From assembly GCF_007713735.2 (NCBI RefSeq), contig NZ_VMNW02000002.1, forward strand, positions 186,001 to 250,000: a DNA stretch of 64,000 bases. Direction: 5' to 3'. Of this stretch, positions 11,246 through 63,576 are shown one piece after another. The translations under genes and the position numbers were made by a program. Positions within the stretch are counted from its first letter, which is position 1. Every line of letters begins with the position of its first letter. The notes under the pieces are model-generated. The model did not search any database, had not been told where the DNA came from, and saw only the letters and a list, made by a program, of their open reading frames with translations. The stretch comes from Amycolatopsis acidicola. GTDB lineage: Bacteria > Actinomycetota > Actinomycetes > Mycobacteriales > Pseudonocardiaceae.

Positions 11246-11259
11246 ACAGGGGACACCAC

Positions 11260-12021: not shown

Positions 12022-12069
12022 CACGGCACGCCAATCCGCACGGGCCAGCACGCACGTGGTCGTTCGGCG

Positions 12070-13068
12070 TCACTCCGCTGGGGTGAACTTCTCCCGGTGG
12101 ATCAGCCGCGGCGCCATCCGCCGTCGTTTGAACGCCTTCACCCCCGCCTCGACCATCGCGGGCGGGCCGCACAGCCAGCCGGACCAGCCGCGCCCGCTCG
12201 TGACGTCCTCGGCGAACGCGTCGGTCGGGAAACCGCCGCGGTACAAGGGATCCGCCTCGTCGGACAGGACGGGGACGAACCGGAATCCCGCGTGTTCGGC
12301 GGCCAGTTCGGCGAACCGGTCGGCGTCGTAGAGGTCGGCGGTCCCGCGAACCCCGTGGTACAGCAGCACTTCCCGCTCCGGGTGGCGGGCCAGCGCGGTG
12401 CGGGCGATGCCGGCCAGCGGCGCCAGCCCGGTGCCGCCGCCGATCAGGACCATCGGGCCGCCGTCGTCCTCGGCTTCCGGGGGCAGGTGGAAGTCGCCGA
12501 GCGGACCGGTGGCCTCGACGCGGTCACCGACGGCCAAGCAGTCGAAAAGCCAGCCGTCGGTGGCGACCCCGCCCGGTACGCGCCGGACGTGCAGCTCCAG
12601 CACCTTGTCCTCGTCAGCGGTGTTCGCCAGCGAGTACTGACGCCGCGCGCCACTGCCGGGCACGACGAGTTCCACGTACTGCCCGGCCTCGAAAGCCAGG
12701 GGCTCAGCCAATCCAAGCAGCACCCGGCGGGTGTCCCTGGCGATGTCGGCCACCTGCAACACGGTCGCCGACAGGTCGCGCAGCGGGTGCGTGGCCCGGC
12801 CGGAGTCCGAGCCGACCTCCACATCGGACACCGGACGGGCCTGGCAGGCGAGTGCCAGGCCCGCGGCCCGCTCGTCACAGGTGAGCGTGTCCACAGGGGA
12901 CAGTCCGTGGTCGACGTTTCCGGACAGCACCTGGAGTTTGCACGTCCCGCAGGTCCCCTGGTTGCACGAGTTCGGCATCCACACCCCGGCGCGCAGGCAG
13001 GCGTCGAGCAACGTCTGGCCGGCGGCGCAGTCGACCTGGCGGCCGCCGACGGTCACCGCGTGCCCCAT
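12070..13068 (-). CDS. gcoB: GcoB-like reductase of the aromatic O-demethylase system
   Basis: A 332-residue single-chain electron-transfer protein that takes electrons from NADH through FAD and a [2Fe-2S] cluster to the P450 encoded just upstream. Domain order is a plant-type ferredoxin domain at the N-terminus (cysteines 35, 40, 43 and 75 in CNQGTCGTCK...C), an FAD-binding barrel (RQYSLAN near 143) and an NAD-binding domain (GGGTGLAPL near 214, then CGPPAMV). This three-domain arrangement in one chain is the hallmark of GcoB. Only one base separates it from the P450 stop, so the pair is co-expressed. The product supports removal of the methyl group from guaiacol-type aromatics to give catechols and formaldehyde. 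Confidence 0.9.
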   Translation of the reverse strand: MGHAVTVGGRQVDCAAGQTLLDACLRAGVWMPNSCNQGTCGTCKLQVLSGNVDHGLSPVDTLTCDERAAGLALACQARPVSDVEVGSDSGRATHPLRDLSATVLQVADIARDTRRVLLGLAEPLAFEAGQYVELVVPGSGARRQYSLANTADEDKVLELHVRRVPGGVATDGWLFDCLAVGDRVEATGPLGDFHLPPEAEDDGGPMVLIGGGTGLAPLAGIARTALARHPEREVLLYHGVRGTADLYDADRFAELAAEHAGFRFVPVLSDEADPLYRGGFPTDAFAEDVTSGRGWSGWLCGPPAMVEAGVKAFKRRRMAPRLIHREKFTPAE

Positions 13069-48520: not shown

Positions 48521-50101
48521 TCAGCTCAGCTCGAACCCGTGGTAGCCGGCGACAGCCACGCCGTCCGCTATTTGTTTGTACGTGCCGACACCGCCGACGA
48601 ACGGGAGGAAGACGCGACGTTTGCCGGGGATGTTCGCGCCCATGTACCAGGAAGCCGCGCGGGGCATGACGGTCAGGTCGGCGATGTCGTTGGTGGCGTT
48701 GACCCAGTTCTCCTCCGCCGCGGGGTCGGGTTCCATGCGCCGCAACCCTTTCGACCGCAGGTGGGCGAGCGCGCGGGTGACCCAGTCGACGTGGTACTCG
48801 ATCGAGGTCACCATATTCGACAGCACAGACGGACTCTGTGGCCCGGTAATGAAGAACAGATTCGGGAACCCCGCCGACATCAGACCGAGGTACGTCTGCG
48901 GGCCGGCTTCCCATTTCTCCCGCAGGGTCCGGCGGCCGTTGCGGATGGCGATCGCGTTCAGGGCACCGGTCATCGCGTCGAAGCCGGTCGCCAGGATGAT
49001 CACCTCGGCCTCATGCTCGGTTTCGCCCGCCAGGATGCCGCGCGGGGTAATCCGGCGGATCGGGTCAGTTTCGATGTCCACAAGGGACACATGGTCCTCG
49101 TTGTAGACCTCGAAATACCCGGTGTCCACGCACATCCGCTTCGCGCCGATCGGGTAGGTCCGCGGGGTCAGCCGTTCGGCGAGCTCCGGGTCCGCCACCT
49201 TCAGCCGGATCTGCTCGCGCACGTGCTCCGCCGCCGCCTCGTTGGCGTCCACATCGGTCAGGATGTCGCGGAATGCCTGCGTGTAGCACAATCCGCCGTC
49301 GAGCCAGCGCCGTTCGAACTCCGCACGGACACGTGAGGGCTCGGTGTCGGCATAAAAGGCCGTGCTCTCTTCGCCGCAATGGAAGCCCGCACGAGTCAGG
49401 CGGCTTTCCTCGCGGAAATCAGGATAACGCGGGCGGAGCGCGGCGAGCCGGTCGGCGATGGGTTTGTTGTGGGCTGGCACGGCGTAGGTCGGCGTGCGCT
49501 GGAAAACGGTGAGCCGCGAGACGATCGGCGCGATGGCGGTGATCGTCTGCAGCCCCGACGAGCCGGTGCCGATCACCGCGACGCGCTTGCCCGCCAGGTC
49601 GACGCCCTCGTGCGGCCAGCTCGACGTCCAGTACACCTCGCCCGCGAACTCCGCCATCCCGTCGAACTCCGGCCGCGACGGCATCGACAGGCACCCGGTC
49701 GCGGCGATGACGTACCGGGCCGTCCGGGACGCGCCGTCGTCGGTGGTCACCGTCCACTGTGTACCGTCCCAGTCCAGCTGCTCCACGCGGGTACGGAAGC
49801 TGATGTCCCGGCGCAGGTCGTAGCGATCGGCGACATGCCTCAGGTACGCCAGGATCTCCGGCTGGGCCGCGTACCGCTCACTCCAGTCCCATTCCTGCTC
49901 CAGCGCCGGATCGAACGAATACGAGTACTCGAGCGACTCGATGTCACAGCGCGCGCCCGGGTAGCGGTTCCAGTACCACGTGCCGCCGACCTCGTCGCCC
50001 GCTTCGACGACCCACGTGTCGAAACCCTGGTCCCGCAGGCACTTCAGCTGATACAGGCCGGAGAACCCGGCGCCGATGACGATCACGTCGTGGTCGGGCA
50101 T
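48521..50101 (-). CDS. FAD-dependent Baeyer-Villiger monooxygenase
   Basis: A 526-residue flavoprotein that inserts oxygen next to a ketone, giving an ester or lactone, with NADPH. The FAD motif GAGFSG is at residues 10-15, the early GGTWYWNRYPGARCD is typical, and the NADPH motif GTGSSG is near 178. The family fingerprint F-x-G-x3-H-x3-W-P is recognisable at 152-163 (FAGEVYWTSSWP), but the histidine position (158) is tryptophan. The active-site arginine segment GAKRMCVDTGYFE is present. It is first-acting oxygenase in a set with an esterase and an alcohol dehydrogenase, all leftward, so a secondary alcohol could be oxidised to a ketone, then an ester, then hydrolysed. Confidence 0.88.
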   Translation of the reverse strand: MPDHDVIVIGAGFSGLYQLKCLRDQGFDTWVVEAGDEVGGTWYWNRYPGARCDIESLEYSYSFDPALEQEWDWSERYAAQPEILAYLRHVADRYDLRRDISFRTRVEQLDWDGTQWTVTTDDGASRTARYVIAATGCLSMPSRPEFDGMAEFAGEVYWTSSWPHEGVDLAGKRVAVIGTGSSGLQTITAIAPIVSRLTVFQRTPTYAVPAHNKPIADRLAALRPRYPDFREESRLTRAGFHCGEESTAFYADTEPSRVRAEFERRWLDGGLCYTQAFRDILTDVDANEAAAEHVREQIRLKVADPELAERLTPRTYPIGAKRMCVDTGYFEVYNEDHVSLVDIETDPIRRITPRGILAGETEHEAEVIILATGFDAMTGALNAIAIRNGRRTLREKWEAGPQTYLGLMSAGFPNLFFITGPQSPSVLSNMVTSIEYHVDWVTRALAHLRSKGLRRMEPDPAAEENWVNATNDIADLTVMPRAASWYMGANIPGKRRVFLPFVGGVGTYKQIADGVAVAGYHGFELS

Positions 50102-50104
50102 CGT

Positions 50105-51043
50105 TCACCCCTCCTTGCCGTACCCGGCGACGAACCGGCCGATGTGGCCGGCGACGAGCCGGACGCCCTCGCTCGCGCCGGGGAGGATGTTCACCATCTG
50201 GAAATACGCGTGCATCTGCCCTTCGGCCCGCTCCAGCGCGACCGGAACCCCCGCTGCTTCAAGGGCTTTCGCGTAAGCGACCCCCTCGTCGTGCAGCGGG
50301 TCGTACTCGGCGACGTACACCAGCGCGGGTGGCAGACCCGTATGGTCGGCCGCGCGCAACGGCGAGGCGTCCGGATGCGCGCGCGCCTGCGTGTCCGGGA
50401 GGTAGTGGTTCCAGAACCAGAGCATCGTCTCCCTGCCGAGGAGCAACTGGTTCTCCGGCGCGACATACGAACGACGCTCGGTGTCGCAGTCGGTGACGGG
50501 ATACACCAGCGCCTGAAAGTCGATCTTCGGGCCTCCGCGGTCCCGCGCCCACAACGTCATCACCGCGGCGATATTGCCGCCGGCGCTGTCCCCGGCGACG
50601 ATCAGCGGCGTGCCGGCGGGCGCGACATTCCCGGCCGCCCAGGTCAGCCCGGTCCAGCTGTCCTCGACGGCGGCCGGGAACGGATACTCCGGCGCCTTGC
50701 GGTAGTTCACGAGCACGACGGCCGACCGCGTGAGGTTCGCCAGCAGCCGCCCCAGGTGGTCGTACTGCAGGTCGATGTCCCCGAGAACCCAGCCCCCACC
50801 ATGGAAGTACACGATCGTCGCCCGGGGTTCGCCCTCCGGGCGCAGCACCCGCACCCGGAACCGCCCGCCCTTGCCGTCGAGCTTCAGGTCCTCGACCGAC
50901 GCGACCTCGGGCCCCGGCCCGCTCATCCCCGCGAAGATCGGCCCGCTCAGCCGCGCGACCGCGGGCGTCGACTCGTGGATCGGCGGGTCGCCCGGCTCGG
51001 CCAGCTGCGCCAGGAAGGCCTGGGAAACCGCTTCCAGTGGCAT
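50105..51043 (-). CDS. Alpha/beta hydrolase of the hormone-sensitive-lipase type (esterase)
   Basis: A 312-residue esterase with the HSL-family oxyanion motif YFHGGGWVLGD near residue 82, nucleophile in VAGDSAGGNIAAV near 155, the acid in VAEYDPLHDEG and the histidine in EGQMHAYFQM. It likely hydrolyses the ester or lactone made by the Baeyer-Villiger enzyme encoded three bases downstream. The N-terminus (MPLEAVSQAFLAQLAEPGDPPIHEST) is a normal cap region. Confidence 0.9.
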   Translation of the reverse strand: MPLEAVSQAFLAQLAEPGDPPIHESTPAVARLSGPIFAGMSGPGPEVASVEDLKLDGKGGRFRVRVLRPEGEPRATIVYFHGGGWVLGDIDLQYDHLGRLLANLTRSAVVLVNYRKAPEYPFPAAVEDSWTGLTWAAGNVAPAGTPLIVAGDSAGGNIAAVMTLWARDRGGPKIDFQALVYPVTDCDTERRSYVAPENQLLLGRETMLWFWNHYLPDTQARAHPDASPLRAADHTGLPPALVYVAEYDPLHDEGVAYAKALEAAGVPVALERAEGQMHAYFQMVNILPGASEGVRLVAGHIGRFVAGYGKEG

Positions 51044-51059
51044 CGCGCGACCTCCCCGC

Positions 51060-52187
51060 TCAGTAGTCCGCCTCGGAGTACACGACGACGCCGCGCAGAT
51101 TCCTGCCGTCGGCCATGTCCTGGTAGCCCTGGTTGAGGTCTTCGAGCCGGTACGTCGTGGTGACCAGCTCGTCCAGCTTCAGCAGGCCCGAGCGGTAGAG
51201 GTCGAGCAGCTTCGGAATCTGGGTGCGCGGCCCCACCCCGCCGAAAACCGCGCCCTGGACCCGTTTTTGCAGCAGCGTCAGCTCGAACAGGTTGAGGTCC
51301 ACGGTCAGATCGCGGAAGTCGCCCATGCCCGTGACCACCACCTGGCCGCCCTTCGCGGTCAGGCTCAGCGCCTGCTGGATGTGCTCGCCCTTGATCTCGC
51401 CGACGGTGATGATCACGGTGTTCGCGAGCTTGCCCCAGGTGAGCTCCGGCAGCTCGGCCGCGGCCTCTTCCACCGAGGAGTACGCGTGCGTGGCGCCGAG
51501 CGCGAGTGCCTTCTTGCGCTTGAACTCCACGGGATCGATGGCGACGACGAACCGGGCGCCCGCGAACGCAGCGCCCTGGACGGCGTTGATCCCGACCCCG
51601 CCGACGCCCATCACCACGACGGTGTCCCCCGGCCGCGTCCCGCCGATCTCGGTCGCGGAGCCCCAGCCGGTCGACACCCCGCAGCCGAGCAGGGCGGCCT
51701 TGTCCAGCGGCACGTCCCGCTCGATCTTGACCACCGACGCCTGGTTCACCGTGACGTAGGGCGAAAAAGTGCCGAGCAGGCACATCTGGATGACCGGCCT
51801 GCCGTCCTGGGTGACGCGGAAGCTCTTGTCCGCGATCGCCTGCCCGGTCAGCAGACCCGCGCCCTCGTCACAGAGGTTCTGCAGCCCCGACGCGCACGCC
51901 GGGCAGGTGCCGCAGGCGGGGATGAAGGCCAGCACCACGTGGTCGCCTTCCTCGATGCCGCGCACGCCGGGCCCGACCTTCGTGACCACGCCCGCGCCTT
52001 CGTGCCCTCCGACCACCGGCAGGAACGGCAGCGGGCTCGCGCCGGACTGGATGTGCGCGTCCGAATGGCAGAGTCCGGACGCGGCCAGCCGGACCTGGAC
52101 CTCCCCGGCCACCGGGTCGCCGAGCTCGACCTCGGAGATCCGCCACGGCGCGCCGATCTCCTCGAGAATCGCTGCCTTCACCTTCAT
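51060..52187 (-). CDS. Zinc-dependent NDMA-type alcohol dehydrogenase (mycofactocin-linked)
   Basis: A 375-residue medium-chain dehydrogenase of the nicotinoprotein type, in which NAD stays bound and electrons leave through mycofactocin (or the artificial acceptor NDMA). It has catalytic zinc ligands in GLCHSDAHIQSG and GGHEGAGVV, structural zinc cysteines in ACGTCPACASGLQNLCD, and GVGGVGINAVQGAAFAGA for the cofactor. The overall sequence is like the actinobacterial NDMA-dependent family rather than the soluble NAD-linked ADH. It supplies ketone to the monooxygenase. The start ATG (MKVKAAILEEIG) at 52187 is unambiguous. Confidence 0.88.
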   Translation of the reverse strand: MKVKAAILEEIGAPWRISEVELGDPVAGEVQVRLAASGLCHSDAHIQSGASPLPFLPVVGGHEGAGVVTKVGPGVRGIEEGDHVVLAFIPACGTCPACASGLQNLCDEGAGLLTGQAIADKSFRVTQDGRPVIQMCLLGTFSPYVTVNQASVVKIERDVPLDKAALLGCGVSTGWGSATEIGGTRPGDTVVVMGVGGVGINAVQGAAFAGARFVVAIDPVEFKRKKALALGATHAYSSVEEAAAELPELTWGKLANTVIITVGEIKGEHIQQALSLTAKGGQVVVTGMGDFRDLTVDLNLFELTLLQKRVQGAVFGGVGPRTQIPKLLDLYRSGLLKLDELVTTTYRLEDLNQGYQDMADGRNLRGVVVYSEADY

Positions 52188-52346
52188 GCCGCCTCCTGCA
52201 CTTCGCTGGACAGGTAAGGGATCTCGTCCAACGTAAGAGCACCGGGCAAGGCGCACCTAGCGCAATCGCGGCCACAACCCGGCCGTTCCGGCCAGTCGCG
52301 CCGCCCGCTCCCCCCGTCCGGAAATCACCGCGACCTGCCAGGATCG

Positions 52347-53477
52347 GTGATGATTGACGCCTTCGCGCGGGTCGGCGAAACTGGCCAGATGGATCCCGGC
52401 GCCGGCGTCTTGGACAGCTCGCCGGCGACGGGCAGGTCGAACCGGGTGATCGCCGCCATCACCGATTCCTGGGACCATCCGCGCACGATGGTGGGTGTCT
52501 CGATCATCGTCGATTGGGCCGCGCGACACGGAGCCGACGCCGCGGCGCTGCTTCGCGGCTCCCACATCGACCCGGGCACCCTGGCCGACCCGCACGCGCT
52601 CATCGAGGCGCAGCAGGAGATCGCGGTGATCCGCAACCTGGTCACCACGTTCGGCGACCGGCCGGGGCTCGGCGTCGAACTCGGACGGCTCTACCACCTC
52701 ACCGCGTACGGCTACTTCGGTTATCTCCTGGCATCCTGCGCGTCGGTGCGGGAGGTCACCGAGAAAGGGCTGCAGTACGCGCTGCTGACCTTCGCCTTCT
52801 CGACGATGGCCGCTCATGTCGGCGACCACGGGCACTATGTCCTGGCGATGGAGGCCGACGACATCCCCGCCGACGTGCGGCGGTTCGTCATCGAGCGCGA
52901 CGTCGCGGCCACCGTGCAGATCCAGCGCGAGATCTTCCCGCACCCGCACCGGGTTCCGCTGCGCGAGGTGCGGCTCACCTTCGGCATCGACGAGGCCCGG
53001 CGCCCGCCGGTGTACTGGAACTACTTCCGGGTTCCGGTGTCCGCGTCCCGGCCACGCACCGAGATCGTCTTCGACGAGGCCTATCTCGACCAGATCCCGC
53101 CGATGGCGAATCCGCACACCGCGCAGCTGATGGCCGCCCAGTGCGAACGGATCCGCGCCGAACGCCTGCACCGCACCGGCGTCGCGGCCAGGGTCCGCGC
53201 GTTTCTGCTCGACCAGAGCTCGCTGGATCTCACGCTCGAGGAGATCGCCGAGCGCCTGCACTACGCGCCGCGCACGCTGCGGCGGCATCTCGAACACGAG
53301 GGCACGACGTTCCGCGCGGTCCTCGCCGAGGTGCGGCGGAGCGTCGCGGAGAACCTGCTCCGCGACCCGGCCGTGCCGAAGTACGAGATCGCGCGGCGTT
53401 TGGGGTACCAGGAGTGGTCGAGTCTCGCCCGGGCGCGGCGTCGTTGGCAGGCCGGGTCCCCGGCGGCCGGCCGCTGA
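52347..53477 (+). CDS. AraC-family regulator of the Baeyer-Villiger gene set
   Basis: A 376-residue regulator with an Arabinose_bd-type (OruR-like) N-terminal region (SIIVDWAARHGADAAALLRGSHID, HALIEAQQEIAVIRNLVTTFGDRPGLGVELGRLYHLTAYGYFGY) and a C-terminal AraC HTH (TLEEIAERLHYAPRTLRRHLEHEGTTFRAVLAEVRRSVAENLL, KYEIARRLGYQEWSSLARARRRW). It is divergent from the alcohol dehydrogenase with a 159-bp gap. The N-terminal start is uncertain: GTG 52347 gives an unusual 47-residue leader; an ATG near 52488 gives a more typical length. Confidence 0.85.
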   Translation: MMIDAFARVGETGQMDPGAGVLDSSPATGRSNRVIAAITDSWDHPRTMVGVSIIVDWAARHGADAAALLRGSHIDPGTLADPHALIEAQQEIAVIRNLVTTFGDRPGLGVELGRLYHLTAYGYFGYLLASCASVREVTEKGLQYALLTFAFSTMAAHVGDHGHYVLAMEADDIPADVRRFVIERDVAATVQIQREIFPHPHRVPLREVRLTFGIDEARRPPVYWNYFRVPVSASRPRTEIVFDEAYLDQIPPMANPHTAQLMAAQCERIRAERLHRTGVAARVRAFLLDQSSLDLTLEEIAERLHYAPRTLRRHLEHEGTTFRAVLAEVRRSVAENLLRDPAVPKYEIARRLGYQEWSSLARARRRWQAGSPAAGR

Positions 53478-53874: not shown

Positions 53875-54153
53875 CTTGGCTTACTCACCGTACACATCCG
53901 GCCCCCCGTGGATCAGCCTGACTGGTACGTACAGAGTAAACGCGCGGCGTAGCGCGATACCTGACGTACACCCGGGAAAAATCCGTGCCACCCCGGATGT
54001 CTCATCTCCTCGTCGTGGGCAGACTGAGGGGATCACGAGCGACGGTAGAGCGAATGGGAAACCCGCTGGGACAACGACGATCCAGGCCCTTCGCCACTGT
54101 GTGCGAATCCGAAGGCAGTCCGGCTCGGTCAGCGAAATATGGGGTGTCCGTTC
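53875..54153. other. 279-bp intergenic region between LuxR-type and SARP genes
   Basis: No gene, hairpin or strong repeat is seen. It presumably holds the two divergent promoters; ATG of the SARP gene lacks a strong Shine-Dalgarno sequence (GGGGTGTCCGTTC). Confidence 0.4.
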
Positions 54154-54927
54154 ATGAGGGTATTCATGCTAGGCGCATTTCAGGTCGAGATCGACGACAA
54201 GTCCTGCTTCACCCCGGATCCGCCGAAGGAAAGGACGGTACTGGCACTGCTGGCGCTTCTGGTCAACCGGATCGCGAGCGTCGACACGATCATCAGCGAA
54301 ATCTGGGGGAACGAGCCGCCGAAGACCTCGGTGGCCACCGCCCGGACCTACATCTACCACCTGCGGAAGATCTTCGTGAAACGACTCGGGGCGCCGGGCG
54401 CGGAGCTGCTGGTGACCCGGATTCCCGGTTACCTGCTGCGCCTGCCCGCGGAGGCGATCGACGCCAACGTTTTCTGCGATCTGGTCACCAAGGGGCGGCA
54501 GCTGCTCGACGCCGGCCGTCCCGAGGACGCGGCCGTCACGCTGCGGGAAGCCCTGGGCATGTGGCAGGGCCCGGCGCTGGGCAACGTCCCGCTCGGGCTG
54601 ACGCTGAGCGCGTACGCCACCTTCCTCGAAGAGGAGCGAAGACGAGCCAGGGAACTCCGGATCACCGCCGACATGCGGCTGGGCCGGCACCGGGAGCTCA
54701 TCTCCGAGATCCGCTCGCTCGTGGCCGGGGATCCGCTCAACGAGTGGCTCAGCGCCCAGCTCATGATCGCGCTCAGCCGGTGCGGCCGGCGGGGCGAGGC
54801 TCTCGGGGTCTACGCCGATCTCCGGAATGGCATGGAAACGCAACTCGGCCTTGACCCGTCACAGGCCTTGCAGCGGCTGCATTACCAGGTACTGGTCGCC
54901 GATCAGCAGACGCTGGTTTTCCAGTAG
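54154..54927 (+). CDS. SARP-family pathway activator
   Basis: A 257-residue Streptomyces-antibiotic-regulatory-protein type activator. Its N-terminal OmpR-like winged helix (KERTVLALLALLVNRIASVDTIISEIWGNEPPKTSVATARTYIYHLRKI) is followed by the bacterial transcriptional activator domain (residues about 115-257; FCDLVTKGRQLLDAGRPEDAAVTLREALGMWQGPALG). SARPs switch on antibiotic clusters by binding direct repeats near -35. Length is the compact type without ATPase domains. Start MRVFMLGAFQVEID was taken as the true N-terminus. It is the strongest signal that what follows is a specialised-metabolite cluster. Confidence 0.92.
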   Translation: MRVFMLGAFQVEIDDKSCFTPDPPKERTVLALLALLVNRIASVDTIISEIWGNEPPKTSVATARTYIYHLRKIFVKRLGAPGAELLVTRIPGYLLRLPAEAIDANVFCDLVTKGRQLLDAGRPEDAAVTLREALGMWQGPALGNVPLGLTLSAYATFLEEERRRARELRITADMRLGRHRELISEIRSLVAGDPLNEWLSAQLMIALSRCGRRGEALGVYADLRNGMETQLGLDPSQALQRLHYQVLVADQQTLVFQ

Positions 54928-55102: not shown

Positions 55103-55798
55103 TTACCCGGCGGAGCCGCCGATCCCGGTCTCCAGGATGTCCAGCGCCCGGCCGACGGTGCCGGTCAGCGCTTCGGCGACCTGCTCGCCCGACTGGCCCG
55201 CCGCCATCAGCCTGCCCGCCTCCTCGACCATGGCGGTGACGGTGGTCAGCACGAAGGCCGCGACCGCGCGCGCCCCGACGACGCCGAGGTGCGCCGGGAC
55301 CCGGTCCGCCAGGATGGCCGCCAGCTCCTCCTGGTAGCGCCCGCCGCGGCGGCGCAACGCGTCCTGCAGGGCAGGACTGTTCATGATGATGGCGCCGACG
55401 TTCGCGATCCGCGGATCGGCCTCCGCGCGCGGATCACCGCCGCCCTCGGGCGCCGCGGGCACGCCGGCGAACATGCGCGGCAGCTCCTCCTTGAGGAACG
55501 CGGGCAGCGAGGTGCTCAGCGGCAGCTGGTCGATCAGGTCGATCACGTCGGCCTCGACCGGGCGGTGCCAGGCCAGCAGGAGGTCCTCCTTGGCCGGGAA
55601 GTGGTTGACCACCGTCTGCTTCGCGACATCCGCCGTCTCGGCGATCTCGGCGATGGTCACGGCTTCGTAGCCGCGCTCGCTGAACAAGGTCAGCGCGGTC
55701 TGCGCGATCTTGTCCCTGGTCTGCCTGCGGCGCCGCTCGTGCCGGGTCGCCACGGTTTCTTCCCGCGGCCGGTCGCCGCTGTCCGGGTTGCTGCTCAT
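55103..55798 (-). CDS. TetR-family repressor of the cluster and exporter
   Basis: A 231-residue TetR repressor: a basic leader, then the HTH (TRDKIAQTALTLFSERGYEAVTIAEIAETADVAKQTVVNHFPAKEDLLLAWHRP, residues about 25-80) and a C-terminal ligand domain. It is divergent from the biosynthetic genes. AGTACCGTACT lies immediately upstream of its ATG, and AGTACCGTAC occurs in front of the exporter genes at 59568, so autoregulation and control of export are both likely. The ligand may be the product itself, as for typical drug-resistance TetR proteins. Confidence 0.9.
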   Translation of the reverse strand: MSSNPDSGDRPREETVATRHERRRRQTRDKIAQTALTLFSERGYEAVTIAEIAETADVAKQTVVNHFPAKEDLLLAWHRPVEADVIDLIDQLPLSTSLPAFLKEELPRMFAGVPAAPEGGGDPRAEADPRIANVGAIIMNSPALQDALRRRGGRYQEELAAILADRVPAHLGVVGARAVAAFVLTTVTAMVEEAGRLMAAGQSGEQVAEALTGTVGRALDILETGIGGSAG

Positions 55799-55964: not shown

Positions 55965-57008
55965 ATGACCGAGAAGATCGAGATCGGCATGGCGGTGGGC
56001 CGGGGCACCGGCGCCGAGCTGGCGGCCACGTTCGAGCGGATCACCGCCAGGCTCGGGGACATTTACGCCAGGAAGCCGGTGATCACGAGATCACCCCGGA
56101 CCTACGACACCTACCATTCCCTCCTGCCGGAGCTCGACGTCGGCAGGATCAAGGCCGCGACCGCCGAGGACGCCGGACACTACGAGGCGTTCTGCCGCGC
56201 GCAGGCGGCCCGCGGCGTCACGGCGATCTTCCGCACCGCGATCAACGCGCAGTCCCTCTACCTCGTGCGGGAACGGCTGCACGCGGTCAAAATGGACGCG
56301 CTCGACTCCGGGCCGGTGTCGCTGCTGCTGGTGCGCGACCAGTCCCAGGGTTTCTACACCGGCACCAACACGCACGAGGACGACGCGGTGAGCCGGACTT
56401 TCCGGTTCAGCAAGGAAACCACCGAGAAGATCGTGTCCTTCGCCCTCGGCCAGGCGCGCCTGCACTGGGGCGACGAACCGCCCGACCGGGTGCTCATGCC
56501 GTACAAGTTCCACCTCTTCGACGGCGCGCTCAGCAACTGGGTGAACGACATTTCGCGGCGGTACGGCGTCGCGATCGAGCTGTGCCAGCCGGACACCGCG
56601 AACCGGAATTTCCTCGCGGGCGGCCTGTCCGGGCGGCTGCTCGTGATCGGCGGCAACGAATGGGCCGACATCATGCACGTGGTGCTGCTGGACTGGCTGG
56701 GTCTCGGCCGCCAGGAGACCCGGTTCACGCGCAACGTCTACCTGCATCCCGGGTTGTCCCGGCTCGTGGAGTTCCAGACCGTGCACGGCTCCGCGGACGA
56801 TCTCGAAGGCAAGGACATGGTCAACCCGACCGCGACGGTGCGTGCCGCGGCCGCGATCATGGAGCGCCACGCGGGCTGCGCCGGCGCCGAGGAACGGGTC
56901 GAGCAGGCGCTCGGGCGGCTGACCGAACAGGGCCTGATGACCGCGGACATGGGCGGCCGCGGCACCACGACGTCGGTGGTGAACGCACTGTGCGAGCAGC
57001 TGGGCTGA
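55965..57008 (+). CDS. Isopropylmalate/isocitrate dehydrogenase-like enzyme with an altered metal site
   Basis: A 347-residue protein of the beta-decarboxylating dehydrogenase fold. Start GMAVGRGTGAELAATFERI parallels the family's GDGIGPEV, and the C-terminal VHGSADDLEGKDMVNP matches the adenine-binding loop; EQGLMTADMGGRGTTT is the usual ending. By hand alignment R124 (LLVRDQSQGFYTG), K181 (YKFHLFDGALSNW), D210 and D235 hold conserved positions, but the last metal-binding aspartate is Val239 (ADIMHVV for GDILSD). So a two-acid metal site is expected and the chemistry may differ from oxidative decarboxylation. It may make an unusual precursor acid. Ribosome site GAGGGGAA precedes the ATG. It is the first gene of a rightward operon. 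Confidence 0.8.
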   Translation: MTEKIEIGMAVGRGTGAELAATFERITARLGDIYARKPVITRSPRTYDTYHSLLPELDVGRIKAATAEDAGHYEAFCRAQAARGVTAIFRTAINAQSLYLVRERLHAVKMDALDSGPVSLLLVRDQSQGFYTGTNTHEDDAVSRTFRFSKETTEKIVSFALGQARLHWGDEPPDRVLMPYKFHLFDGALSNWVNDISRRYGVAIELCQPDTANRNFLAGGLSGRLLVIGGNEWADIMHVVLLDWLGLGRQETRFTRNVYLHPGLSRLVEFQTVHGSADDLEGKDMVNPTATVRAAAAIMERHAGCAGAEERVEQALGRLTEQGLMTADMGGRGTTTSVVNALCEQLG

Positions 57009-57595
57009 GCGGCGCCGCGCTGGTGGTCGTCGATCTGCAGAACGACTTCTGCGAAGGCGTGCCGGGGGTGGCCGAGCAGACCGGGAAAACCGTTGCGGCG
57101 GCGAGAAAAGCGGGCGTCGAGGTGATCTTCGTCCGGTTCCTCGGCGACGAGCGGTACCAGGGGCCGAGCTGGCGTGCGCGGAACCGGTTGCTGGGCAAGA
57201 GAACCCGCTGCCGCGAGGACACCGCGGGCGCCCGGTTCCATTCGGTGCGCCCGGCACCGGGCGAGCGCGTGTTCACCAAGTACGCGAAGTTCGACGCCTT
57301 CCTGGCCGCCGGGTTCGGGGAGTACCTGGCGACGCTCGGCGTGCACACCCTGGTGCTGGCCGGGCTGTTCAGCGACGTCTGCGTCGACACGACCGCGCGG
57401 ACGGCGTTCCAGCGCGGCTACCACATCACCGTGCCGGCCGACTGCACCACCAGCCTGCATCTCGATCCGGGCGCCGTCCTGCGGTTCATGGCGGTGCTCT
57501 ACGGCGCGCGGATCACGACGGGCGAGGAGCTCGCCCGCACCGGCGGGTGGGCCCACCGGGAGGAACAGGATCATGACGCTGGCGTATCTCGTTGA
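56990..57595 (+). CDS. Isochorismatase-family cysteine hydrolase
   Basis: A 201-residue hydrolase of the isochorismatase/nicotinamidase fold. Catalytic triad positions are all visible: D15 in LVVVDLQNDF, K97 in VFTKYAKFDAF and C131 in LFSDVCVDTTARTA. The family includes true isochorismatases, nicotinamidases, carbamoyl hydrolases and N-carbamoylases, and an active Cys makes C-N bond hydrolysis likely here. The GTG start at 56990 overlaps the previous gene by 19 bp and the stop overlaps the next by 23 bp, so it is firmly part of this operon. The partner acyltransferase suggests a role in precursor tailoring. Confidence 0.83.
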   Translation: MRAAGLSGAALVVVDLQNDFCEGVPGVAEQTGKTVAAARKAGVEVIFVRFLGDERYQGPSWRARNRLLGKRTRCREDTAGARFHSVRPAPGERVFTKYAKFDAFLAAGFGEYLATLGVHTLVLAGLFSDVCVDTTARTAFQRGYHITVPADCTTSLHLDPGAVLRFMAVLYGARITTGEELARTGGWAHREEQDHDAGVSR

Positions 57596-58523
57596 CGGCG
57601 GGCTGCACGACCGGCCCGGGCTCGGCACGGATCTCCACGAGCACTGCCCCGCCGTGCGCGAGGTGTACCGGCAGGCGTCGGCGTGGACGGGCGCGCCGGT
57701 GGACAGGCTGCTTTCGTGGGGGCCGGATCCGCTGACGGAGTACCGGGAGGTCGGCGCGATCCGACGGTCGGCGGTGGTCCTCGGGCTCTGCGATGTGCTG
57801 GCGGAAAAGGGAATCCGGCCGGACGCGGTGGCGGGCATGAGCGTCGGGGCGCTCACCGCGGCCGCGATCGCCGGTGCCGTGTCCCGCCGGGAGCTGTTCG
57901 AACTGCTCGCGCGATTGCGCGAGGCGCCGCTGGTGTCCGGTCCGCCCCAAGGGATGGCGACGCTCTTCGTGCCACCCGGCGTGGACCCGGAGGAGTTCGC
58001 GGGCGGGTTCCCGGACGGGGTCTGGGTGGCCGTCGAGATCGGGCCCGTGCACGGCGGGGCGACGCGGCTCGTGCAGCTGTCCGGACGGCAGGACGCCTTG
58101 CGGAAGCTCGCCGCGCAGGTGGCGGACGAGGAGAAACTCCAGCTGCCGCCGGAAAGTTTCGTCGCCTTCCACTCCCCCTTGCGGGCGCACGTGCGCGAGC
58201 TCCTCGAACCGCGGATCGCGGCGATGGACTTCCACGCCCCGGAAATCCCGCTGTACGGCGGCATGGAGCCCATCCGGTACGAGACCGCGGACCAGGTGCG
58301 CGAGATGGTCCTGCGGAACCAGACGGATCCGGTCAGCCTGCCGCGGATGCTCGGCCGCCTCGGCGAGCAGGACGTCGAGCTGTCCTTCCTGCTCGGCCCC
58401 GCCGCGGCGGACCTCTACACCGGCGGCGTGGCGCACGAGGTCGTCCAGGTCGAGAACCGGGAGCATCTCGCGGAGGCCTTCGAGGCGCTCCACGAGTTCG
58501 GGAGAACCTCGTGGACGCCCTGA
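57573..58523 (+). CDS. Free-standing malonyl/acyl-CoA:ACP acyltransferase
   Basis: A 316-residue FabD/AT-fold protein. The catalytic serine is S90 in GMSVGALTAA, the histidine H200 in FVAFHSPLRAHV, and R116 sits where the malonyl carboxylate is bound. The N-terminal GQG-x-Q motif is not conserved (AYLVDGGLHDRPGLG), so the oxyanion region differs from housekeeping FabD. A separate AT inside a biosynthetic operon is a common sign of a trans-AT polyketide synthase, or of a proofreading acyl hydrolase. Start ATG at 57573, with GGAGGAA upstream. No PKS gene is in the window; it may lie beyond the right edge. Confidence 0.8.
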   Translation: MTLAYLVDGGLHDRPGLGTDLHEHCPAVREVYRQASAWTGAPVDRLLSWGPDPLTEYREVGAIRRSAVVLGLCDVLAEKGIRPDAVAGMSVGALTAAAIAGAVSRRELFELLARLREAPLVSGPPQGMATLFVPPGVDPEEFAGGFPDGVWVAVEIGPVHGGATRLVQLSGRQDALRKLAAQVADEEKLQLPPESFVAFHSPLRAHVRELLEPRIAAMDFHAPEIPLYGGMEPIRYETADQVREMVLRNQTDPVSLPRMLGRLGEQDVELSFLLGPAAADLYTGGVAHEVVQVENREHLAEAFEALHEFGRTSWTP

Positions 58524-59566
58524 TCGCCCCGTTGCTGCAACAGGACCTCGACGACTGGACACGCCGGGTGGTGGCACGGCATTTCGACCCCGAGGGCGGG
58601 AGCCCGTACTGGCTGGGGCGCGCGGCCGGGCTCCCGTTCGACCCGAGGGACGTGACCCGCTACGCGGAGCTGGCCGAGTTCGGCCCGTTCCCGCTGGAGG
58701 ACCTCCGCACGATCGATCCCGCGTCCCTCGTGCCGGCGTCCGGATCCGCGCCGCTGCACGGGTGCGTGTTCGATTCGGGCGGCACGACGGGGCCGCCGTG
58801 CCGGATCTTCTACACCGGGAAAATGCTGCGGCAGCGGGGAATCTGGCGGCACTGGTCGTTCCGGTCGGAGGGGTTCGAGCGCGGCAGGGTGTGGCTGCAG
58901 GCGACCCCGGCCGGGCCGCACATCGTCGGGCACGGCGCCACCGAACTGGTCGGCTACGGCGCCCGCGTGTACGCGATCGACTTCGACCCGAGGTGGGTCA
59001 AACGCCTGGTGCGCCAAGGCCGCCTGGCCGAGGCCGACGCCTACACCGCGCATCTCGTCGGCCAGATCGCGGACCTCGTCGGGCACCGGCGGATCGACTA
59101 CCTGAGCACGACCCCGGCGCTGTTCCGCGCTTTCCTGCGTGCCGAGCCGGATCTGGCCGGTTCGCTGCGGGGCATCCGCGTGGCGGGCACGCAGATCACC
59201 CCGGCCATGTACGTATCCTTCCGCGCGGCGCTGCTCGACGGGATCGTCGGGCGCACCTACGGGAACACGCTCGGCGTCGCCGCGGGCCTGCCCGCGCCGC
59301 CGGACGGCTCGGTGCTGCCCTACATCCCGAACTATCCGCAGATCACGATGACCGTCACCAGCAAGGCCGACTGGCGGCGGACGGTCGGCTACGGCGCGGT
59401 CGGCCGGGTGCTGCTGACCGTGCTGCACGAGGACCTCTTCCTGCCCAACGTGCTCGAGCGCGATCAGGCGAGCAGGTACGACACCGGCCCGGACTGGCCG
59501 TGCGACGGGGTCGCCGACGTCCGCCCGCTCCAGGACACCAGCGGGGCGCCCGAAACCCTGTACTGA
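58511..59566 (+). CDS. PaaK-like adenylation protein lacking the C-terminal domain
   Basis: A 351-residue protein related to phenylacetate-CoA ligase (PaaK) and coenzyme F390 synthetase. The nucleotide loop DSGGTTGPPCRIFYTG lies near residue 89, followed by LSTTPALFRAFLR, VAGTQITPAMY and RTYGNTLGVAAGLP. It ends with TVLHEDLFLPNVLERDQAS and GVADVRPLQD, where full-length relatives (about 430 residues) continue into the mobile C-terminal domain that carries the catalytic lysine. So it may only adenylate a carboxylate, or use a partner for transfer. The GTG start at 58511 overlaps the AT gene by 13 bp. Together they suit loading of an unusual acyl unit. Confidence 0.78.
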   Translation: MDALIAPLLQQDLDDWTRRVVARHFDPEGGSPYWLGRAAGLPFDPRDVTRYAELAEFGPFPLEDLRTIDPASLVPASGSAPLHGCVFDSGGTTGPPCRIFYTGKMLRQRGIWRHWSFRSEGFERGRVWLQATPAGPHIVGHGATELVGYGARVYAIDFDPRWVKRLVRQGRLAEADAYTAHLVGQIADLVGHRRIDYLSTTPALFRAFLRAEPDLAGSLRGIRVAGTQITPAMYVSFRAALLDGIVGRTYGNTLGVAAGLPAPPDGSVLPYIPNYPQITMTVTSKADWRRTVGYGAVGRVLLTVLHEDLFLPNVLERDQASRYDTGPDWPCDGVADVRPLQDTSGAPETLY

Positions 59567-59647: not shown

Positions 59648-60628
59648 ATGCCCGAGCCCGCGATCCGAGCCAGGGGCCTGTCCAAGAAGTTCGGTGCCAC
59701 CGACGCAGTGCGCGACGTCGATCTCGAGGTCGAGCAGGGGGAGATCTTCGGTTTCCTCGGCCCGAACGGCGCCGGCAAGACCACCACGATCAACATGCTG
59801 TGCACGCTCGCCGAGCCGACGTCGGGCTCCGCCACCGTCGCGGGGAACGACGTGGTCACCGACCCGGACCGGGTCCGGCTCGCGATCGGGCTCGTGTTCC
59901 AGGACTCCGCGCTCGACGGCTACCTCTCCGCCGCGCGCAACCTCCGCCTGCACGCCGAGCTGTACGCCGTCCCCCGCGCGCAGCGAGCCGAACGGATCGA
60001 AGCGGCGCTGCGGATGGCCGGGCTGTGGGAGCGCCGCCGCGACATCGTCGGCCGGTTCTCCGGCGGCATGAAGCGCCGGCTCGAAGTGGCCAGGGCGCTG
60101 CTGCACTCCCCCAAGGTGCTCTTCCTCGACGAGCCGACCGCCGGGCTCGACCCGCAGTCGCGGGCCGCGGTCTGGGAGCACGTCGACCGGCTCCGCCGCG
60201 AGCAGGGCGTGACCGTCTTCCTCACCACGCACTATCTGGAGGAGGCGCACATCTGCGACCGGATCGCGATCATCGACCACGGCGAGATCGTCATCGTGGA
60301 CACCCCGGACAAGCTGCGCGCGAGCGTCGCGGAGGACCGGATGCAGATCACCACGGACGACGACGAACTGGCCCGCGCGCAGCTGCGGGAGCGGTTCGGC
60401 ATCGAGGCCGGGATGCACGACGGGGCGCTCACCTTCGCGGTGGCGGACGGGGAGCAGTTCGTGCCGCGGCTGTTCGAGGGGCTCGGCGTCGGGATCCATT
60501 CGGTGCGGGTCACCCGCCCGACCTTGGACGACGTGTTCCTGAGCTACACCGGCCGCACCATCCGGGACGCCGACGCGCCCGACGCCCGAGGCGCCGCGCT
60601 GCGCATGATGATGGGAGGACCCCGATGA
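59648..60628 (+). CDS. DrrA-like ABC transporter ATP-binding protein
   Basis: A 326-residue ATPase for an antibiotic-efflux type ABC transporter. Walker A is GPNGAGKTT at residues 38-46, the Q-loop near 85, signature FSGGMKRR at 138-145, Walker B LFLDEPTAGLD at 158-168, and a C-terminal DrrA-specific extension (VRVTRPTLDDVFLSYTGRTIRDADA). It exports a product or protects the producer. Its own operator-like promoter suggests TetR control separate from the enzymes upstream. ATGA overlap couples it to the membrane subunit. Confidence 0.93.
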   Translation: MPEPAIRARGLSKKFGATDAVRDVDLEVEQGEIFGFLGPNGAGKTTTINMLCTLAEPTSGSATVAGNDVVTDPDRVRLAIGLVFQDSALDGYLSAARNLRLHAELYAVPRAQRAERIEAALRMAGLWERRRDIVGRFSGGMKRRLEVARALLHSPKVLFLDEPTAGLDPQSRAAVWEHVDRLRREQGVTVFLTTHYLEEAHICDRIAIIDHGEIVIVDTPDKLRASVAEDRMQITTDDDELARAQLRERFGIEAGMHDGALTFAVADGEQFVPRLFEGLGVGIHSVRVTRPTLDDVFLSYTGRTIRDADAPDARGAALRMMMGGPR

Positions 60629-61500
60629 CCACCGCCACCCAGACCTGGCCGCCCGCCGCCGGGTTGCCGGTCCGCAGGCTGCGGCACGAGGTGGCCGCCG
60701 TCAAGATCGTGTGGGAGCGCGACATCGCGCGCTACCTCATCGACCGCACCCGGATCGCCTCGCTGTTCCTGCAGCCCGCGCTGTACCTGCTGATCCTCGG
60801 CACCGGGCTGGCCACCGTCACGTCCGGCCTCGGCGTGGACTACCGCACGTTCATCTACCCCGGCGTGCTCGCGATGACGGTGGTGACCAGCGCGGTGATC
60901 ACCGCGGGCTCGCTGGTGTTCGACCGGGAGATCGGCTTCCTGCGCGAGGTGCTGGTCGCGCCGGTGCGCCGCGGCACCATCATCGCGGGCAAGATCCTCG
61001 GCGGGATGTCGATCGCGGTCGCGCAGGGCATCATCATGATGCTGCTGGCCGGGCTGTGCGGGGTGCCGTACTCGGCCACGCTGATGCTGACGCTGCTGGG
61101 CGAGATGATCCTGCTTTCCTTCGCGGTCACCGCGTTCGCCGTCATGCTGGCCGCCAGGATGACCAGGGCGCAGTCGTTCGTGACGCTGGTGCAGATGCTG
61201 ATCCAGCCGCTGCTGTTCGTCTCCGGCGCCTTCTTTCCCTTGCACGGCCTGCCTTCCTGGCTCGCCGTGGTGACGGCGGTCAACCCGGTCACCTACGCCG
61301 TGGACCCGATGCGCCAGGCCGTGCTGGGCGCGCTCGACCCGGCCGAGGCGGGGCCGCTGCGCGCGCTGGACCCCGGGATCTCCTGGGGCAGCTGGCCGGT
61401 TCCCATCGGGCTCCAGCTGACCATCGTCGCCGTGCTGGGGCTCGTGTTCACCGCGATCGGCATCCGGTTCATCCACAAGCCGCGGCCCTCCGGGATGTGA
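60625..61500 (+). CDS. DrrB-like ABC-2 type membrane subunit
   Basis: A 291-residue permease with six hydrophobic segments, including ASLFLQPALYLLILGTGLA, YPGVLAMTVVTSAVITAGSLV, LLAGLCGVPYSATLMLTLLGEMI, and the EAA-like loop EIGFLREVLVAPVRRGTIIAGKILGG. The final sections include NPVTYAVDPMRQAVLG. It pairs with the ATPase encoded 4 bp upstream to pump a hydrophobic compound out of the cell, which is usual for antibiotic clusters. The exporter is presumably the self-resistance element for the cluster product. Confidence 0.92.
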   Translation: MTTATQTWPPAAGLPVRRLRHEVAAVKIVWERDIARYLIDRTRIASLFLQPALYLLILGTGLATVTSGLGVDYRTFIYPGVLAMTVVTSAVITAGSLVFDREIGFLREVLVAPVRRGTIIAGKILGGMSIAVAQGIIMMLLAGLCGVPYSATLMLTLLGEMILLSFAVTAFAVMLAARMTRAQSFVTLVQMLIQPLLFVSGAFFPLHGLPSWLAVVTAVNPVTYAVDPMRQAVLGALDPAEAGPLRALDPGISWGSWPVPIGLQLTIVAVLGLVFTAIGIRFIHKPRPSGM

Positions 61501-61622: not shown

Positions 61623-62477
61623 GTGGAGTTGGCAGGCCGGACGGCCCTGGTCACCGGGGCGTCACAGGGCATCGGCGAAAGCATCGCGCTGGCACTGGCC
61701 CGGCGCGGGATGCGGGTGTACGCCGGGGTGCGGTCGGAACCGGACCGGCTCCGGCTCAACGGCGCGGGCGGCACGATCACGCCGGTCCGGCTGGACATCT
61801 GCGAACAGGACGACATCGACGCGGTCCGCAAACGGCTCGAAGCGGAGACCGGCGACGCGGGCCTGGACGTGCTCGTGAACAACGCGGGCGTGTTCGGGCT
61901 CGCGCCCGTCGAACACGTCTGCCTGGACGATCTGCGGTACCTGTTCGAGGTCAACGTGCTCGGCCAGATCGCGGTCATCCAGGCCACGCTTCCCTTGCTG
62001 CGCAAGGCAGGCGGCCGGATCGTGAACATCGGCTCCGACGCGGCGAAGTTCACGCTCCCGATCGTCGGGCCGTACGCGGCGTCGAAGGCGGCATTCGAGG
62101 CGATCGGCGTGGCGCTGCGCCGGGAGGTCGGCGCGCAGGGAGTCACCGTGGTGGCGGTGCAGCCCGGCACCGTGAAGACCCGGCTGTGGGACCGGATCAC
62201 CGAAAACCCCGGTGAGCGCGCCTGGCCGAGTCATCCGTCCTATCAGGACTTCCTGGCCGGGGTCGCGGCGGTCGCCGACCGCGGGCGGAGCGCGGGCCGG
62301 TCTCCGGAGTCAGTGGCCGAGGCCATCGTCCGGCTGCTGACGCTGCGCCGCCCACCGGCCCGTCATCGGGTCGGCTGGGACGCGCGGCTGCGCGGGCTCA
62401 CCATCGCGCTGCTGCCCACCCGCGTCATCGACGGCTTCCTCGCGCGGCGCCTGGCCCCGGCAGGCAGCCGTGGCTGA
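61623..62477 (+). CDS. SDR-family oxidoreductase of the cluster
   Basis: A 284-residue SDR: VTGASQGIGESIALAL, an arginine after beta-2 (AGVRSEPDRLR) suggesting NADP, NNAGVFG, NIGSDAA, PYAASKAAFEA and PGTVKTRLWD. The longer C-terminal region resembles the 'SDR with 11-beta-HSD-like' group. It might act on a ketone or alcohol of the product or of its sugar. The GTG start at 61623 is the only reasonable one (MELAGRTALVTG). It overlaps the methyltransferase gene by 8 bp. Confidence 0.87.
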   Translation: MELAGRTALVTGASQGIGESIALALARRGMRVYAGVRSEPDRLRLNGAGGTITPVRLDICEQDDIDAVRKRLEAETGDAGLDVLVNNAGVFGLAPVEHVCLDDLRYLFEVNVLGQIAVIQATLPLLRKAGGRIVNIGSDAAKFTLPIVGPYAASKAAFEAIGVALRREVGAQGVTVVAVQPGTVKTRLWDRITENPGERAWPSHPSYQDFLAGVAAVADRGRSAGRSPESVAEAIVRLLTLRRPPARHRVGWDARLRGLTIALLPTRVIDGFLARRLAPAGSRG

Positions 62478-63576
62478 GCTGATCGAGCGGCTGATCGCCG
62501 CCGGACCCGCGCCGGATGACGCCGTCGCCGCGCTCGTGGCCGAGCTCGGGCTCGACAAGGTCGCCGAGACACTCGTCGGCGAGATTCTCTTTCGCTGTCC
62601 GCCATCGGAAAACACCGTCCCGGTCGCGATCGCGCTGGACGTCACGCACGGGGCACAGCGCTGCCGGACCGTGCTCCGGCTGGCGCGCGACGAACCGATC
62701 CGCGAGACCGGCAGCCCGGATGTCCAGATGGTGCTGGAGTTCACGGCGGCCGACCTCGTCCGGCGGCTGTTCGGCCCCACCGGGCACCGGCGCGCCGGTG
62801 ACTTCCGCAACGCGTTCCTGCCGTCCGGGGTCTCGCAGCTGGACCTCATGCGGCCCACTTCCTTGGCCACCAACACTTTGCTGGCCGGCTGCGGCAGTCA
62901 CGCCGTGGATCTGGGCAGCCTCGCCGCGCGGTACGGCTCGGACAAGTGGGCCAGCCTCCACTGGTACGTCCCGCACTACGAACGCCATTTCGCCCGGTTC
63001 CGGGACCAGGCCGTGCGGGTGCTGGAGATCGGGATCGGCGGCGAGGACCACGAACCGGGCGGGGCGTCGCTGAAGATGTGGAAGCGCTATTTTCACCGTG
63101 GTCTCGTGTTCGGCGTCGACCTGTTCGACAAATCCGTCCTGGACCAGCCGCGGCTGACCACGCTGGTGGCCGATCAGCGGGTGGCGGGCGAGCTGACCGC
63201 GATCGGCGAACGGTACGGGCCGTTCGACGTCATCATCGACGACGGCAGCCACGTCGCCGAGGACATCCGGACCAGTTTCCACGCGCTGCTCCCGTTTCTG
63301 CGCGACGACGGGATCTACGTGATCGAGGACCTGCAGACCTCGTACCTGCCCGAGTTCGGCGGCGCCACCGGCGAGCCGCACACCGCGGTGGGCCTGGTCC
63401 AGCAGCTCGTGGACGGCCTGCATTTCCGCGAGCACGGGGAAACCGTTGCCCCGCAACCAGTTCAGGAGTCCATCACCGGGCTGCACGTGTACCACAACCT
63501 CGTCTTCCTGGAGAAGGGCACGAACGGCGAAGAGGGCTTCCCGGCCTGGCTGCGCGAGCTGCTCGGCGACCGGTGA
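62470..63576 (+). CDS. MycE/TylE-like sugar O-methyltransferase
   Basis: A 368-residue S-adenosylmethionine methyltransferase. An N-terminal auxiliary domain (residues 1-140) precedes a Rossmann domain with VRVLEIGIGG at 182-191, VFGVDLFDKS and the metal-binding IIDDGSH at 256-261, then VIEDLQTSY. The segment LAARYGSDKWASLHWYVPHYERHF is characteristic of the mycinamicin MycE / tylosin TylE family, which methylates hydroxyls on deoxysugars attached to macrolides. It thus suggests a glycosylated or polyhydroxylated product. The GTG start at 62470 overlaps the SDR stop. Confidence 0.88.
   Translation: MAELIERLIAAGPAPDDAVAALVAELGLDKVAETLVGEILFRCPPSENTVPVAIALDVTHGAQRCRTVLRLARDEPIRETGSPDVQMVLEFTAADLVRRLFGPTGHRRAGDFRNAFLPSGVSQLDLMRPTSLATNTLLAGCGSHAVDLGSLAARYGSDKWASLHWYVPHYERHFARFRDQAVRVLEIGIGGEDHEPGGASLKMWKRYFHRGLVFGVDLFDKSVLDQPRLTTLVADQRVAGELTAIGERYGPFDVIIDDGSHVAEDIRTSFHALLPFLRDDGIYVIEDLQTSYLPEFGGATGEPHTAVGLVQQLVDGLHFREHGETVAPQPVQESITGLHVYHNLVFLEKGTNGEEGFPAWLRELLGDR

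Follow-up and report, generated by a model that had tools for sequence, protein, structure and literature searches.

Near the right end of a 64,000-nucleotide stretch of the Amycolatopsis acidicola genome (contig NZ_VMNW02000002.1, positions 186,001 to 250,000; hereafter the window), four overlapping genes, A to D, encode a dehydrogenase-like protein, a hydrolase, an acyltransferase and an adenylating protein. Judged by the gene neighborhoods of their relatives, A-B and C-D are independent, portable pairs that have been joined at this locus, where they open a type II polyketide cluster. Our tentative reading, to which we give somewhat less than an even chance, is that in this joined arrangement A and B would make an acid, which D would adenylate and C would transfer. 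The four genes are as follows.

55965-57008, + strand: gene A, protein of the isopropylmalate/homoisocitrate dehydrogenase superfamily, 347 amino acids (PF00180, predicted fold)
56990-57595, + strand: gene B, isochorismatase-fold Cys hydrolase, 201 amino acids, start uncertain (PF00857)
57573-58523, + strand: gene C, discrete atypical acyltransferase, 316 amino acids (PF00698, FabD-type structure matches)
58511-59566, + strand: gene D, EhpF-type adenylating protein without a C-terminal domain, 351 amino acids (phmmer to EhpF)

An earlier reading of this DNA, made from the sequence only, had described four genes with overlaps of 19, 23 and 13 base pairs (bp); this description was confirmed, the four being same-strand open reading frames (ORFs). 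Because every one of the four has homologues elsewhere, they are not chance ORFs. The 19-bp overlap of A and B presupposes the GTG start of B at 56990; the alternative starts are CTG at 57005, leaving a 4-bp overlap that is frequent in relatives, and GTG at 57023. The end-to-end overlap of A-B and C-D suggests that the two pairs are expressed jointly.

Two gene pairs that occur apart in relatives

For the sequence-only reading, recurrence of A to D in unrelated clusters would have spoken for one module, and their being unlinked in relatives against it. When the neighborhoods of homologues of all four genes were compared, the set of four proved to be unlinked in relatives, whereas A with B and C with D each stayed linked, and we rejected the idea of a four-gene module shared with other clusters. 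Relatives of A were collected by scanning genome contigs for exact peptide patterns, which finds close relatives only. This gave 67 named loci, all in Actinobacteria, at 54-63% identity, and 397 genomes of the same order added 9, making 76 loci in all, at least 2 of which are duplicated between the collections and many of which stop at contig ends. Within 2.5 kilobases (kb) of A and on the same strand, B was found at 73, a gene for an EF-hand protein at 73 and a methyltransferase gene at 75 of the 76 loci, and C and D at none (0/76). Conversely, no A-B pair was found at 13 C-D loci with flanks of up to 20 kb. Among 17 genomes with C-D, two do carry A, but far from the pair (on a different contig, or at a distance of megabases) and within ordinary operons of the EF-hand, A, B and methyltransferase genes. 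No examined locus except the focal one holds both pairs, and the puzzling set of four thereby resolves into two units of predictable behavior.

The methyltransferase, which 66 of the 67 named species with A carry, belongs to PF04072/TIGR00027, a group that we take to include carboxyl methyltransferases. With the clustering limits applied, no other gene family was common to more than 7 of the 67 named loci, so the EF-hand, A, B and methyltransferase genes look like a free-standing four-gene operon, with A-B in the middle and the methyltransferase gene last. One example, with an LCM-type methyltransferase, lies at 9428-12596 of locus L050, Streptomyces griseofuscus has another, and such operons (loci L048-L114) occur in several actinobacterial families.

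The window sits in a contig of 303,223 bases, so that the right flank could be read past its edge. In the focal stretch of 117 kb, neither the EF-hand nor the methyltransferase query found a match, and the same queries succeeded in a control locus. Elsewhere in the focal genome, the best match to the methyltransferase query was a 45%-identical protein on another contig; the EF-hand query found nothing in the whole genome, a search for which the positive control covers the focal stretch only. In a sample of 396 genomes from the phylum, A had no close relative outside the focal genome. A further 15 matches, at 24-41% identity, were weak, and the aligned ones among them resemble ordinary dehydrogenases.

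In the literature searched, which covered few subscription papers, we found no description of the A-B pair or the C-D pair, no function for the EF-hand/A/B/methyltransferase operon, nothing uniting type II polyketide, starter unit, isochorismatase and isopropylmalate dehydrogenase, and no paper covering as many as four of the five topics isochorismatase, isopropylmalate dehydrogenase, EF-hand, Streptomyces and gene cluster. The operon is apparently undescribed so far, and what sets the focal locus apart is an EhpF-type adenylating protein that has a different kind of partner and is joined to an apparently undescribed dehydrogenase-hydrolase pair.

An acyltransferase in place of a reductase beside gene D

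D scored below the cut-off of every adenylation model (PF00501, 16.7 bits against a cut-off of 29.9), and no match to AMP-binding_C was found at E 0.01. By phmmer, it matched EhpF (PDB 3l2k and 3hgu) at E 1.2e-41 over residues 2-345, that is, over its full length, and a PDB search to E 1 gave no relatives but these two EhpF sequences. The sequence-only reading called D a C-terminally truncated PaaK-like protein. D is intact as a gene: 13 aligned relatives share the same conserved C-terminus, for which reason a broken or truncated PaaK was rejected.

EhpF, from the D-alanylgriseoluteic acid pathway of Pantoea, also lacks the C-terminal ANL domain and is thought to work with the reductase EhpG. 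The carboxylic acid reductase GriC/GriD of the grixazone pathway likewise consists of an adenylating protein and a separate partner, and an adenylating protein beside a reductase is the arrangement expected of both systems. In 390 genomes of the same family, relatives of D occur at 13 close places, which group tightly (54-63% identity), and at 55 distant ones (approximately 30-41%). The close sample comprised the 13 places, three plasmid cases that were opened and four loci from 394 genomes of the class, all from one genus; the distant sample of 46 comprised 45 of the 55 places and one of 18 distant plasmid hits. The reductase query was a single protein from locus L164 (Pfam Aldedh), and other reductases were recognized by their similarity to it.

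C was found at all 20 close loci, within 200 bp of D at 18 of them. In the 13 places and three plasmid cases, this distance applied to 14 of 16, and at the other two, both on Streptomyces plasmids, a C-type acyltransferase lies approximately 6 and 8 kb off; in the four class loci added later, C is directly upstream of D (4/4). No reductase was found within 3 kb of D at the 16 loci (0/16), nor was there a reductase match in the stretches of the four later ones. In contrast, at 42 of the 46 distant loci a gene for an aldehyde-dehydrogenase-family reductase lies no more than 3 kb from D, mostly less than 100 bp off, and none has C (0/46); four have neither. The focal 117-kb stretch gave no match to the reductase query, which finds its target in a control locus. 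By these neighborhoods, the acyltransferase replaces the reductase as the partner in D's branch, unlike in EhpF/EhpG, to whose adenylating protein D is nevertheless related. The reductase that a two-component carboxylic acid reductase of the GriC/GriD kind would have beside D was found neither in the focal stretch nor near the 20 close relatives. Eight of ten close plasmid relatives of D are labeled 'arylcarboxylate reductase' in PLSDB, a label against which the missing reductase speaks. The partner of D, reductase or acyltransferase, offers a simple genomic rule for the possible activity of EhpF/GriD-type proteins, and the change of partner points to a loading route without a coenzyme A (CoA) ligase.

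The family has many EhpF-type proteins encoded next to a reductase of the aldehyde dehydrogenase type (loci L160-L164 and L169-L208); they look like uncharacterised carboxylic acid reductases.

Properties of the proteins encoded by A, B and C

A matched PF00180 with E 1.7e-16 and 60.9 bits (gathering score 27), over residues 266-339 only, and scored 40.7 bits against the leuB equivalog, far under the cut-off of 353.2. Its AlphaFold model is confident (mean predicted local distance difference test score 92.1), and the top PDB matches of the model, among the best 50 rows, were homoisocitrate and isopropylmalate dehydrogenases, with template modeling scores of 0.59-0.69 by query length and 15-20% identity. 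A has the fold of these enzymes and keeps their Arg, Tyr and Lys positions together with two of the Asp: R90, R102, R124, Y131 and K181, invariant in 38/38 family members, align with the dehydrogenase active site, where we take the Arg triad, Tyr and Lys to bind the substrate, and D210 and D235 are kept at positions that are presumably metal ligands in isopropylmalate dehydrogenase. However, the third of these Asp positions is V239 in 38/38, and the GAVGGP loop of isopropylmalate dehydrogenase is absent. The low leuB score, V239 and the absent loop together rule out an ordinary LeuB.

Within its own family, the focal A stands out. Of 131 positions with conservation of at least 95% among the other members, it is altered at 13, where the median is 1 and the next highest count is 9. 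It forms the longest branch of the family tree, where it pairs with a second long branch (L094), a grouping that may be false. Some of its changes adjoin the Lys, namely Ala to Pro at position 179 and Leu to Phe at 185.

B has the isochorismatase fold (PF00857, E 1.6e-37, 129.7 bits), and the Asp-Lys-Cys triad D15-K97-C131 is present in 55/55 aligned family members. True isochorismatases such as EntB and PhzD have no catalytic Cys; the invariant Cys131 therefore rules out a true isochorismatase and assigns B to the Cys-hydrolase type. N-carbamoylsarcosine amidase and biuret hydrolase, Cys hydrolases that share the triad, are among its best PDB matches, although similarity is low (best E 6.8e-14). 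The sequence change of the focal B is within the family range, with 4 of 63 conserved positions altered and a family maximum of 6.

C matched PF00698 (E 6.5e-12), and its structure-database matches are of the FabD type. In 13/13 aligned family members the Ser of GxSxG and the active-site His are retained and the N-terminal GQG motif is absent; in the focal C the Ser motif reads GMSVG. An Arg at the FabD-aligned column, presumably the residue that binds the malonyl carboxylate, is found in 2/13, among them the focal C. From the scarcity of this Arg, the members of the C family are probably not malonyltransferases, but on this ground the focal C, which has it, may still be one.

The surrounding type II polyketide cluster

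The sequence-only reading expected further genes beyond the right edge of the window. These are present and complete a polyketide cluster to which A to D belong; by codon-usage gene calling and Pfam, A to D head a type II cluster that extends to approximately 91 kb. Genes in the flank and in relatives were called with a home-made codon-usage caller, so some genes were missed or shortened. The neighbors of A to D are as follows; the sequence-only reading placed the operon under SARP/TetR control, which the first two may exert.

54139-54927, + strand: SARP-type regulator, start 54139 or 54166, just upstream of A (PF03704, E 1.1e-42)
55103-55798, - strand: TetR-type regulator, just upstream of A on the opposite strand (PF00440, E 8.7e-15)
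59648-60628, + strand: ABC transporter ATPase, downstream of D (family by eye only)
60625-61500, + strand: ABC transporter permease, downstream of D (family by eye only)
61623-62477, + strand: short-chain dehydrogenase/reductase (SDR) (PF00106)
62470-63576, + strand: MycE_N-domain methyltransferase (PF17843)
63673-65571, + strand, running beyond the right edge of the window: B12-binding radical SAM enzyme (PF02310, PF04055)

After the ABC, SDR and MycE_N genes, the cluster continues with the radical SAM enzyme, two O-methyltransferases, an SDR, a ketosynthase III (KSIII)-like protein and a second acyltransferase. It further holds two FAD-dependent enzymes, two PF04199 cyclases, the ketosynthase (KS) alpha subunit, a chain length factor (CLF), an acyl carrier protein (ACP) at 77795-78058, a P450, SDRs, an ABM monooxygenase, an aromatase/cyclase-type protein, a SnoaL-like protein, an EryCIII-type glycosyltransferase and, by eye, acetyl-CoA-carboxylase-subunit-like genes out to approximately 91 kb. 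The KSIII-like protein (68511-69500, outside the window) matched DpsC of the daunorubicin pathway at E 9.1e-96 with the catalytic Ser aligned. A discrete acyltransferase follows it, a feature shared with the daunorubicin starter set DpsC/DpsD; to our knowledge, the daunorubicin cluster carries no A-D set.

The settings of C-D in relatives vary, some pairs lying with KS/CLF-like genes and others beside modular type I synthases. UbiD/UbiX-like genes occur in 5/16 C-D stretches, which represent a single cluster type in two related genera, if not in fewer lineages. On one Streptomyces plasmid (L166, 16835-23056), futalosine genes of the mqnD, mqnA, mqnC and mqnE types adjoin the relatives of C and D, and on another (L209, 44393-45001) an mqnD-type gene lies approximately 50 kb from them; these neighbors suggest a dihydroxynaphthoate building block there. 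For the focal cluster, a futalosine-derived naphthoate was rejected as the acid, since the mqn queries found no match in the focal stretch. For the PM100117/118 cluster, the authors propose that the naphthoate is activated by other enzymes (PMC4763440).

Possible roles of the joined pairs

In the reading that we prefer, A, with its beta-hydroxyacid dehydrogenase fold, and B, of the Cys amidohydrolase type, would make a small carboxylic acid. The carboxylate of this product would be methylated where the operon stands alone, and at the focal locus D would convert the acid to an acyl-adenylate, whose acyl group C, via its Ser-His pair, would hand to an acceptor such as a carrier protein, so that it might end as the starter unit or a side group of an aromatic polyketide. 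A carboxylic acid is proposed as the product because the operon methyltransferase and the carboxylate-activating D both fit one acid with two fates. The joined cluster thereby suggests what the EF-hand/dehydrogenase/hydrolase/methyltransferase operon makes, an idea that can be tested. A more specific version, which we regard as rather doubtful, is that acyl activation is split between D and C, C taking the acyl group directly from the adenylate and so replacing the missing C-terminal domain or reductase, and that A-B is a portable cassette for making an acid, which is methylated in the stand-alone operons and has been redirected at the focal locus into an aromatic polyketide.

Several observations weigh against this reading. 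The activity of A is uncertain because V239 takes the place of a metal-ligand Asp and the GAVGGP loop is missing, and the focal A, the most diverged in its family, may have shifted in function. An aromatic-acid gene, of the mqnD type, is found in just 2 of the 16 C-D stretches, and the focal stretch is not one of them. On Streptomyces plasmids the C-D link is looser: all ten records with a close D hold a relative of C, but it is adjacent in three and approximately 6-10 kb away in seven (three records, not all of the adjacent kind, were opened, and the rest gave the positions of C and D), and in G874 C adjoins D on the other strand. Finally, a motif scan of the stretch gave a single ACP-like ORF, located with KS/CLF, and the DpsC-like enzyme and the second acyltransferase alone could prime the synthase without A to D.

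These last two points bear on the proposal of the sequence-only reading that A to D form and load an unusual starter or extender unit. Activation and transfer of a carboxylic acid is still the best reading of C-D. The starter or extender role is possible but unproven: priming could bypass A to D, and one ACP-like ORF was found. In its strict form, in which A to D make and load a special starter for the DpsC-like enzyme to condense and C-D are the loading step, this proposal seems to us unlikely: DpsC-type starter machinery is indeed present in the cluster, and the genes for the DpsC-like enzyme and the second acyltransferase run in the same direction as A to D, yet DpsC itself accepts propionyl-CoA, which needs none of the four, and relatives of C-D also adjoin modular type I synthases. 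It is similarly improbable, in our estimate, that C-D are a tailoring acylation pair, with D activating an acid from elsewhere in the cell and C esterifying a hydroxyl, for example of a sugar, and that the function of A-B has no connection with this acid. NDP-hexose 2,3-dehydratase genes in 4/16 C-D stretches (G951, G887, G931 and, approximately 38 kb off, the NBC_00316 plasmid), the EryCIII-type glycosyltransferase and MycE_N methyltransferase of the focal cluster and the single ACP-like ORF would all fit such a role, but the dehydratase query found no match in the focal stretch, carrier proteins are the usual substrates of acyltransferases with this fold, and the end-to-end overlap of A-B and C-D suggests that they are expressed together. 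An editing role, in which C would clear the carrier of incorrect acyl groups while D recycled the freed acid, appears very unlikely. It would agree with the absence of the GQG motif from the C family, and some discrete acyltransferases are acyl-ACP hydrolases; D, however, would be wasteful, and the role leaves unexplained why close relatives of D have C and no reductase in the examined loci.

Sequence to the left of the cluster

The assembly is listed at 6.96% contamination in 195 contigs; base composition is even across the window. At 48521-53477, to the left of the SARP gene, lies what by eye resembles a ketone- or alkane-degradation cassette, with a Baeyer-Villiger-type monooxygenase, an alpha/beta hydrolase, a zinc alcohol dehydrogenase and an AraC-type regulator.

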